Assembly: GCA_002772535.1 (NCBI GenBank)
Contig: PFDP01000014.1
Location: 62,001-126,000 of the forward strand
DNA from: Candidatus Peregrinibacteria bacterium CG10_big_fil_rev_8_21_14_0_10_36_19
GTDB lineage: Bacteria; Patescibacteriota; Gracilibacteria; UBA1369; LOWO2-01-FULL-3
Reading direction: 5' to 3'
DNA length: 64,000 nt
The notes below the pieces were generated by a model. That model had not been told where the DNA came from, ran no database searches, and saw only the letters and a list, made by a program, of their open reading frames with translations. A program made the position numbers and the translations under genes. Below, one piece after another: positions 2,032-42,430 of this stretch (within the stretch, counting starts at the first letter, position 1; each line of letters opens with the position of its first letter).

Positions 2032-2949
2032 CTAGTTAGATACCTTAAACATTTTATTAAGTGCTTCTAGTGCTTTTATTTGAATTTTTTTATCAACTTT
2101 CACAACTGGTGATTCATTTTCTAAGCATCGAAGAATGTATTCTAGCGTATTTCTTTTCATATCAAAACACATATTGCAAAGACCAGTAAATTTCTTAGAT
2201 GGTACTTCACGATTAAGACGCTCGGTCATTCCACATTCTGTTAAAACAAAAAACTCTTTTGCATTTGATTTTTTAGCCACATTAATCATGCCGGTTGTGC
2301 TTGCAATGTGATCTGCCAATTTCAGGACTTCAGGTTTAGACTCAGGATGAGCTATAACCTCGGCGTTAGGATTTTGCTGCCTAACGCTTTTTACATATTC
2401 AGCATTAACAACGTGATGAACGGGGCAATAACCCTGCCAAGCTATAATTTCTTTTTCGGGCACCTTGGTTGCAACATATGCAGCTAAATTTTTATCTGGA
2501 ACAAATATTATCTTTTTATTAGGTAGCGAATTTACAACATCTACAGCATTGGAAGATGTACAGCAAATATCAGACACAGCTTTTACATCTGCTGTTGAAT
2601 TAACGTATGCTACCACAGCGGCATCTGGATGCTTCTTTTTAAATTGTACGAGAGCTTCGGCGTCAATCATATCCGCCATAGCGCATCCAGCATCAATAGT
2701 AGGAACAATAACTTTTTTATCAGGATTCAAAATTGCAGCACTCTCAGCCATAAAATGAACCCCACAAAAAAGGATAATATCAGCATTAGTATTCGCCGCT
2801 TGCTTACATAATCCCAAAGAATCTCCGATGAAATCCGCAACATCATAAATTTCAGGGCGCTGATAATTATGAACAAGAATCACAGCGTTTTTTGCGCGCT
2901 TAAGATCGTTAATTCTCTTAACTAAGATTTTGTTTTCCACTTCACTCAT
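2032..2949 (-). CDS. nadA: Quinolinate synthase NadA
   Basis: VHNYQRPEIYDVADFIGDSLGLCKQA, FCGVHFMAESAAILNPDKKV, WQGYCPVHH, TECGMTERL; likely start MSEVENK (ORF extends to 2991). Confidence 0.95.
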   Translation of the reverse strand: MSEVENKILVKRINDLKRAKNAVILVHNYQRPEIYDVADFIGDSLGLCKQAANTNADIILFCGVHFMAESAAILNPDKKVIVPTIDAGCAMADMIDAEALVQFKKKHPDAAVVAYVNSTADVKAVSDICCTSSNAVDVVNSLPNKKIIFVPDKNLAAYVATKVPEKEIIAWQGYCPVHHVVNAEYVKSVRQQNPNAEVIAHPESKPEVLKLADHIASTTGMINVAKKSNAKEFFVLTECGMTERLNREVPSKKFTGLCNMCFDMKRNTLEYILRCLENESPVVKVDKKIQIKALEALNKMFKVSN

Positions 2950-2960
2950 GCGAAAAAACA

Positions 2961-3479
2961 CTACATCACACCATGAACAAAACGCAACCAAAGAGTTTTT
3001 AAATTTTCTAAAGAAGTTTTAAAAATTGTCGACATCAAACGATTAAGATCCCTAATCTTCCTAAGAGTATTTGAAACTTCATGATAATTTGATTCACCAG
3101 GTGATTTCATCATTTTCATGGCCTTTTTATGCAGTCTATCAATTTCTTTTTGAATTTCTTTTTCAACAGTAATTCTTAGAACCTTCTCAGAAGGTAAATT
3201 TCTAAGCAGTTTTTTCTTAAATTCTTCAGGGTCTATATTGTGTTGGGTTTTACTTCCAGATTTTACAGAGCCACTCCCAGAGTTTTCTTTATTCTCACCA
3301 AGAGTTTCTGAGACATTACCCATTACCTCGCCAGAAACATCAACACTATCAAGGCTAATAGCCGAAGAAATATCCACTTTACCAATATTACGACTCGCAC
3401 TTGAGTCCTCGATTTTGCGACCAATTTCAGCAGAGTTGGTCGTACTTAGGGATTCTTTATTTTTGTTTTGCTCAAGCAT
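2961..3479 (-). CDS. Hypothetical protein, Ser/Asn-rich N-terminus and charged helical C-terminus
   Basis: 172-aa ORF upstream of nadA; no family recognised. Confidence 0.55.
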   Translation of the reverse strand: MLEQNKNKESLSTTNSAEIGRKIEDSSASRNIGKVDISSAISLDSVDVSGEVMGNVSETLGENKENSGSGSVKSGSKTQHNIDPEEFKKKLLRNLPSEKVLRITVEKEIQKEIDRLHKKAMKMMKSPGESNYHEVSNTLRKIRDLNRLMSTIFKTSLENLKTLWLRFVHGVM

Positions 3480-40351: not shown

Positions 40352-42430
40352 ATGATAGAAACAAAAGAATTAGAAAACATATTGGGAAAAAGCCCAAATT
40401 CGCCAGGTATTTACAAAATGCTAGATGAAAAAGGTGAAATAATTTACATAGGAAAAGCAAAAGATCTAAAAAAGCGTGTTAAACAATACTTTCAAAAAGA
40501 CTATTTTCATTCAAGCAGGACAAAAATATTACTTGAAAAAGTTAAAGACATAGAATTAATAGCAGTAGATAGTGAATTAGAAGCAACAATACTAGAATCA
40601 AACCTCATTAAAGAACTTCAGCCCAAATACAATGTCATCATGAAAGATGACAAATCATACGTTTACATAAAAATAACAAAAGAAGATTTTCCAAGAGTAC
40701 AAATAGTAAGAGAAATACTAAAAGATAATGCAAAATACATAGGGCCAAAAACAGCTGCACACAAAGTAAAAGAAACCTTTAAACTTTTAAAAAAGATCTT
40801 CCCATTTAGGCATTGCGGGCTTGGAATAGAAATGATTCAAGAAAACATAGGTAAAGAACACACAGTAAAAATAACTAACAAAGTTATTAAATATCCATGC
40901 CTAGATTATTATATAAAACGCTGCATCGCCCCCTGCATAGGAAAATGCAAAATTAATGAATACCAAGATATTATTAAAAATGTTGAAAATTTTTTAGAAG
41001 GCAAAGCAGACCAAGTTATTGAAAATATAAAAATTCAAATGCAAACCTATGCTCAAAATAGAGAGTTTGAAAAAGCCGCAAAGTTAAGAGACAAATTGCT
41101 AAAAATCCAAGACATACTCGAAAAACAAAAAGTTCAAGACGGAAACACAACAAGCAAAGATGTAATAAATTACCTTGTGCATCAAAACAAAGCCTACTTC
41201 AATCTATTTCAAATCAGATCTGGGAAACTAATAGGACAAGAAAATTTTATTTTAAGTGCCGAAGCAACAGAAGATGAAAGTCAAGAAACAGAAATCCTAG
41301 AAGCATTTATAGAGCAGTACTATGCAATTGCAACAGATATACCAAAAGAAATCCACATACCACACAAAATCCACAAAGATAAAATTGAAGGAGCAAAAAT
41401 AATTATCCCAAAAATAGGAGACAAAAATAAACTACTCGAAATGAGCCTCAAAAATGCAAGAATTTATGCAGATAAATCTGCTCCAAGATGGAACAAGGAA
41501 AATGACCTCACAATCAAAGCCACGGAAAAACTTCAAGAAATACTGAAGATAGAAAAACCGCTTAAGAGAATTGAATGCTACGACATCTCACATCTAAGTG
41601 GCACAGACACAGTAGCATCAATGGTTGTTTTCGAAAACGGAGCGCCAAAAAACAACATGTACAGAAAATTCAAAATCAAAACAGTACAAGAAAAGCCCGA
41701 CGATTTTAAATCCATGGAAGAGGTGCTCACAAGAAGACTAACTAAAATTGCTCAAGAAATACAACAAAAAGAGTACAAATTCAAAAAAGCCCCTCTAAAA
41801 AAACAAAACGAACTGAATAGTGAAAAAGATCCCAAGAAGATTTTTTTCACACTAGAAAAAAACAAAATAATTAAAGGATATATTTCAATATCAGAGCATG
41901 ATAAAAAAATCGCAGAAATAAAAGATCTATGGGTTGAAGAAAAAGAAAGGGGCAAAAAACTTGGATACAATTTGATAAAAAATATAATTCAAAAATCAAG
42001 CAGTAAACGTTTTTATATTGGATGTGAGCCAAAAATGAGAGAATATTATATGATAGCTGGATTTGAAGATATAAAAAAAGTCCCAGAAGAAATTAACCAG
42101 CAGAAAAATCTAATCTATCTTGTATATGACAAAATTAAACATAAAAAGGACGAATCATTTTCAAAAATACCTGATCTAATAGTAATTGATGGAGGCAAAG
42201 GTCAACTCAGTAGCGCCTCGAATGTTTTAAAAAAACTAGAACTCAATATTCCACATATTTCATTAGCGAAAAGATTAGAAGAAATTTTTGTACCAAAAAA
42301 CTCCAAACCTATAATACTAGAACGCAATAATGAGGCCTTAAAACTTTTACAAAGAGCCCGAGATGAAGCCCACAGATTTGCAATTTCCTTTAATAGAGAT
42401 TTGCGCTCAAAAAGAATTAAAAAAACTTAA
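40352..42430 (+). CDS. uvrC: Excinuclease ABC subunit C with inserted GNAT-like domain
   Basis: GIY-YIG SPGIYKMLDEKGEIIYIGKAKDLKKRVKQYF; UVR REFEKAAKLRDKLLKIQDI; RIECYDISHLSGTDTVASMVVFENG; insert; PDLIVIDGGKGQLSSA; RARDEAHRFAISFNRDLRSKR; ends without HhH domain. Confidence 0.95.
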   Translation: MIETKELENILGKSPNSPGIYKMLDEKGEIIYIGKAKDLKKRVKQYFQKDYFHSSRTKILLEKVKDIELIAVDSELEATILESNLIKELQPKYNVIMKDDKSYVYIKITKEDFPRVQIVREILKDNAKYIGPKTAAHKVKETFKLLKKIFPFRHCGLGIEMIQENIGKEHTVKITNKVIKYPCLDYYIKRCIAPCIGKCKINEYQDIIKNVENFLEGKADQVIENIKIQMQTYAQNREFEKAAKLRDKLLKIQDILEKQKVQDGNTTSKDVINYLVHQNKAYFNLFQIRSGKLIGQENFILSAEATEDESQETEILEAFIEQYYAIATDIPKEIHIPHKIHKDKIEGAKIIIPKIGDKNKLLEMSLKNARIYADKSAPRWNKENDLTIKATEKLQEILKIEKPLKRIECYDISHLSGTDTVASMVVFENGAPKNNMYRKFKIKTVQEKPDDFKSMEEVLTRRLTKIAQEIQQKEYKFKKAPLKKQNELNSEKDPKKIFFTLEKNKIIKGYISISEHDKKIAEIKDLWVEEKERGKKLGYNLIKNIIQKSSSKRFYIGCEPKMREYYMIAGFEDIKKVPEEINQQKNLIYLVYDKIKHKKDESFSKIPDLIVIDGGKGQLSSASNVLKKLELNIPHISLAKRLEEIFVPKNSKPIILERNNEALKLLQRARDEAHRFAISFNRDLRSKRIKKT

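Follow-up and report, generated by a model that had tools for sequence, protein, structure and literature searches.

On the forward strand of the window, a stretch of 64,000 nucleotides from Candidatus Peregrinibacteria bacterium CG10_big_fil_rev_8_21_14_0_10_36_19, an open reading frame (ORF) of 692 amino acids (40352..42430) was identified by profile matches as uvrC with a nested GNAT domain. UvrC is among the most conserved bacterial repair proteins. The ORF scores 486 bits against the TIGR00194 equivalog (cut-off 285) and is a complete UvrC with both nuclease domains and the UVR motif; genes encoding UvrA and UvrB are found in the same genome. All features described here lie on the forward strand. 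The GIY-YIG nuclease domain for 3' incision (residues 18-94, 40403..40633; PF01541, E 1.4e-11), whose residues Y32, R42, E77 and N94 are kept across all UvrCs compared, is followed by the UVR motif, the UvrB-binding element (residues 220-254, 41009..41113; PF02151, E 1.2e-7), and by the UvrC RNase H-like region (residues 269-373, 41156..41470; PF22920). The RNase H domain for 5' incision is present in two halves. Its first half (residues 395-465, 41534..41746; PF08459) contains the catalytic D411, and its second half (residues 607-690, 42170..42421), delimited by profile, structures and conservation, contains the catalytic D613 and H674 and is followed by no HhH. D411, D613 and H674 are present in 102/102 UvrCs carrying a GNAT insert and in 39/39 insert-free UvrCs. 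The PF08459 match is broken in two by the insert, its first piece covering residues 395-472, and the solved UvrC RNase H chains 2nrr and 2nrt align to residues 389-465 and ~605-688, skipping the insert.

The nested GNAT domain (residues ~466-606, 41747..42169) was recognised by PF00583 and PF13673, by an AlphaFold (AF2) model and by Foldseek. A previous interpretation made from the letters of the DNA, the sequence-only reading, had placed a GNAT-like insert between the two catalytic-Asp segments at coordinates close to these, and all three lines of evidence bear this out. PF00583 matches between the PF08459 halves with an E value of 1.4e-7 and 32 bits (curated cut-off 20.7), as does PF13673 with an E value of 2.2e-7, above its curated cut-off. 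EVLTRR and VIDGGKGQL lie 148 residues apart in the window, whereas most UvrCs of the phylum that have no insert show a spacing of 11-31. For the insert alone, AlphaFold run on three natural sequences gave a model with a pLDDT of 80.5 and a pTM of 0.74, in which strands and helices follow one another as in a GNAT. When this model was compared to the PDB using Foldseek, GNATs were retrieved (GCN5 with E 1.6e-7, 3d8p, ElaA 5z6n), with TM-scores of 0.62-0.68 to several of them; structure prediction thus yielded the GNAT fold that had been suspected. A profile made from 116 inserts pulled 50 PDB sequences, all named ones being GNATs or acetyltransferases (best 3d8p, 6e-8), and GNAT profiles match up to 87 of the 116 inserts. 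A full-length AlphaFold model built from three sequences was poor (pLDDT 41), too much so to position the insert relative to the nuclease, the insert being its best-predicted part. The insert of the 692-aa UvrC has a real GNAT fold.

Three elements can be marked within the insert: motif A, the putative acetyl-CoA pyrophosphate loop KERGKKLGYNL with R533 and G538 (residues 531-541, 41942..41974); Y565-Y566 in the YYxxxGF motif (42044..42049), of which Y566 is the putative general acid; and the exit motif D-x-S-F (residues 600-603, 42149..42160), directly before the catalytic strand. Measured against the pattern [RQ]xxGx[GA], the RGKKLG of the window has the R and the last G, and the fourth-position G is replaced by K. 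A lysine at this position is common among GNAT-UvrCs, and the solved GNAT ElaA has RGEKVGQQL there.

To describe the distribution of the insert we rely on 163 extracted UvrCs. Of the 89 genomes of the order (UBA1369), 84 yielded a UvrC match, and a long insert is present in every UvrC whose insert site was extracted. Inserts of at least 100 residues are found in 119 of 141 UvrCs of the class (Gracilibacteria) and in 2 of 22 UvrCs from other classes, the latter being a chosen, not a random, sample. A profile search of 382 genomes across the phylum revealed full-length insert matches within UvrC confined to the class, except for one genome, G265. The insert is thus found in relatives at the same site, and over 100 genomes have it in frame. 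This rules out an assembly error, a frameshift or a chimera, an explanation to which we attach practically no credence. At the same site, a UvrC from outside the class (L110; G250, f38) holds a K/E-rich non-GNAT insert of 130 aa, and the 321-aa insert at L107:2242-3249 (G015) apparently consists of two tandem GNAT copies. Among UvrCs from a plasmid collection (80 records, 38 genera), the best 15 listed align over only 75-82% of the query, each split into two or three segments, as would be expected if they had no insert.

The insert is missing from the families f18, f28, f29, f33 and f35 and from some members of f21. Two GNAT-free UvrCs, L164 (G236, f19) and L145 (G090, f18), still carry D-x-S-F, which looks like a relic of GNAT loss; the domain was apparently lost in L164, and probably likewise in L145, with the UvrC core kept. 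A FastTree phylogeny of the UvrC core, insert excluded, requires 10 changes of insert presence with weakly supported deep branches, so that one early gain with several losses is the simplest reading and not a proof. Identities of insert and core are correlated (Mantel r 0.75, a value reached in none of 500 permutations), and we count this divergence in step as support for vertical inheritance. Most simply, the GNAT of the main lineage goes back to a single insertion early in the class, followed by vertical inheritance and later loss in a few lineages. The GNAT insert of Peregrinibacteria and their relatives, a large group of uncultured bacteria of very small size, is ancient and selectively maintained.

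Other domains are found in the same loop. The neighbouring family f21, beside its insert-free members, includes an AadB-like nucleotidyltransferase in L112 (2081-2665; PF10706, E 1.7e-6), an insert of similar sequence in L199 and a DUF559 endonuclease domain in L151 (1152-1739; PF04480, E 1e-34). Five further f21 members (L115, L154, L155, L191, L193) carry GNATs of a generic kind, their CoA loops being canonical or nearly so. Scores of three of these against the main-insert profile are weak (L154 21.5, L155 13.0 and L115 51 bits, versus 67-193 bits for most main-type inserts), which suggests that the generic GNATs were inserted independently of the main lineage. In f23, L160 has a serine hydrolase in the loop (2344-3021; PF06821, E 1e-11). 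By its sequence record, the UvrC loop before the second catalytic-Asp strand is evidently an insertion hot spot. According to RNase H topology, this alpha-beta loop presumably lies at the sheet end away from the active site, a position that would account for its tolerance of inserted domains. At another place in UvrC, behind the position that corresponds to residue 164, L175 (G199) carries a 145-aa DUF559-like sequence resembling that of L151. The UvrC inserts of L151, L163 and L079 include the peptides SPHPDPLPEGEG, NTSPNPSLERRGA and QDVPVGAIHESP, which are repeat-like and look like translated interspersed repeats.

The insert is under purifying selection. Its omega is ~0.03-0.27 where dS is measurable, including lineages in which the insert is unrecognisable as a GNAT; these values are rough because dS is saturated in many pairs. 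In the window family, mean identity is 46% for the insert as compared to 62-74% for the UvrC core and 67-74% for the nuclease halves; the insert evolves faster. A CoA loop of the RGxKLG type, with R533 and G538, is retained in 75 of 102 GNAT-UvrCs, that of the window included, and is eroded in f10, f11, f14, f20 and scattered others. Y566 is present in 86/102, namely in 71 of 75 with an intact CoA loop versus 15 of 27 without it (Fisher p 1e-5; independent-pair test, median p 0.03, range 0.016-0.29). CoA loop and Tyr566 were lost together in some lineages. No significant dependence on the CoA loop was seen for Y555, K482 and K550, and that of D600 was weak (Fisher p 0.06). Conserved insert positions across the class are K482, K550, Y555, G570, F571, P578, D600 and S602. 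The D-x-S-F pattern of the exit motif occurs in 97 of 102 GNAT-UvrCs and 10 of 12 divergent inserts as opposed to 2 of 39 insert-free UvrCs (L145 and L164). Joint loss of loop and Y566, while Y555, GF, P578, K482 and D600-S602 persist, leads us to infer two layers of conservation: a structural layer with a conserved scaffold or contact role and, separable from it, a layer with a putative cofactor or enzymatic role.

After the RNase H domain, only a tail of 5 residues follows in the window UvrC; the absence of the C-terminal (HhH)2, already pointed out in the sequence-only reading, is hereby confirmed. The 3' end of uvrC overlaps with a convergent gene whose stop is at 42417, so that no separate HhH is encoded just downstream. 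Nor was a short free-standing HhH ORF found in the genome, whose only two HHH_5 matches above cut-off belong to frames that are 189 and 361 aa long. UvrC of the E. coli type has been reported to depend on HhH for binding ssDNA and for 5' incision (PMC7835731). One might suppose that the insert stands in for the missing DNA-binding domain, the more so as insert and HhH absence coincide in 27/27 members of the window family and the insert is basic (net charge +7.0 versus +3.4 per 100 aa for the rest of UvrC, a difference that may partly reflect K-rich proteins). HhH is kept, however, in 51/102 GNAT-UvrCs and absent in 6/39 insert-free UvrCs of the phylum, and a tree-based independent-pair test revealed no association between GNAT insert and HhH loss. 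A link between the two, as implied before, did not hold up; HhH loss is a separate and repeated event, and we consider such a replacement very unlikely. Since insert-free UvrCs may lack HhH too, its absence does not exclude the window protein from UvrC.

The explanation we favour, with about as much belief as doubt, is a working UvrC in which the GNAT is above all a module for docking or positioning and, in most lineages, probably also an acetyl-CoA binder. A whole GNAT domain would have entered the RNase H loop just before the strand with the second catalytic Asp. With this loop at the sheet end far from the active site, as RNase H topology implies, the nuclease should fold and cut normally, and a GNAT-bearing UvrC would perform normal dual incision. 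The insert would primarily dock or position, making contact with DNA or with UvrB close to the 5' incision, by means of K482, K550, Y555, GF and P578 together with the D-x-S-F tether. In most lineages, the window's included, it probably still binds acetyl-CoA via RGxKLG. Such inserts may acetylate a nearby lysine or tune incision to the acetyl-CoA level, an acetyl-CoA role that would since have been lost repeatedly.

Alternatively, the main function may be that of an active acetyltransferase, which would acetylate UvrC itself, UvrB or another partner and make repair track the metabolic state. R533, G538 and Y566 are kept across deeply diverged lineages (75/102) and lost as a unit, and PF00583 exceeds the Pfam cut-off just twice in the genome, once in the UvrC insert. 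We still regard this as rather doubtful, as at least 27 of the 102 recognisable inserts, and also the divergent ones of f3, f30 and f31, are without the CoA loop with the domain still in frame, and the CoA-loop residues are not among the most conserved positions of the class. Since a CoA loop in 75/102 would also fit an insert that is mainly an enzyme, ranking scaffold over enzyme is a matter of judgement. Likewise tentative is the proposal of an active nested GNAT, dependent on acetyl-CoA, that would as an enzyme or sensor modify or gate the 5' incision of UvrC. Finally, the GNAT could be a remnant without any repair role in an exposed loop which tolerates foreign domains. Such a neutral passenger would fit the unrelated domains in f21 (nucleotidyltransferase, DUF559, independent GNAT) and the serine hydrolase in f23, the loss of the GNAT from L164, and probably from L145, without loss of the UvrC core, and the faster evolution of the insert. 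We find it improbable in view of the purifying selection on the insert, its near-invariant residues across the class and the fact that, small genomes notwithstanding, no sampled UvrC of the order is without it.

The choice posed by the sequence-only reading, coupling of acetyl-CoA or acetylation to excision repair or else a structural spacer, is answered in part on each side. Coupling is favoured by the cofactor loop and Tyr566 being kept in most lineages and disfavoured by their joint loss in others. A spacer agrees with the other insert residues being conserved everywhere.

In the open-access literature, we found no description of a UvrC bearing a GNAT or acetyltransferase or of UvrC in Peregrinibacteria, and no account of UvrC and lysine acetylation. 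We class the GNAT-bearing UvrC as a variant of a known protein. A GNAT nested in the 5' nuclease of UvrC, in a class with reduced genomes, provides a natural test of coupling between excision repair and acetyl-CoA, which may be physically coupled in these bacteria. If true, gating of 5' incision by acetyl-CoA would put nucleotide excision repair directly under metabolic control. Lineages which lack the CoA loop and keep the domain represent a built-in control for enzymatic versus structural roles, and the loop in which nucleotidyltransferase, nuclease and hydrolase domains have also settled is an internal site of UvrC permissive for insertion.

With canonical UvrC (Thermotoga maritima RNase H domain 2NRR/2NRT; GIY-YIG domain 1YCZ/1YD6) the window protein shares the nuclease domains, the UVR motif and the catalytic residues; it differs in having a GNAT of ~140 residues within the RNase H domain and no C-terminal (HhH)2. 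With GNAT acetyltransferases (Staphylococcus aureus 3d8p, E. coli ElaA 5z6n, GCN5 5trm/8h6c) the insert has fold, strand order, a motif A-like loop and YYxxxGF in common. Unlike these, it is nested in a nuclease and is not a free enzyme, and in its motif A, which has been eroded in some lineages, a K takes the fourth position. Lineage-specific insertions and deletions in UvrC are also known from the conserved signature indels of Deinococcus repair proteins (PMC5867870). There, the UvrC changes are reported as indels, whereas the insertion described in this study is a whole domain with the fold of an enzyme.
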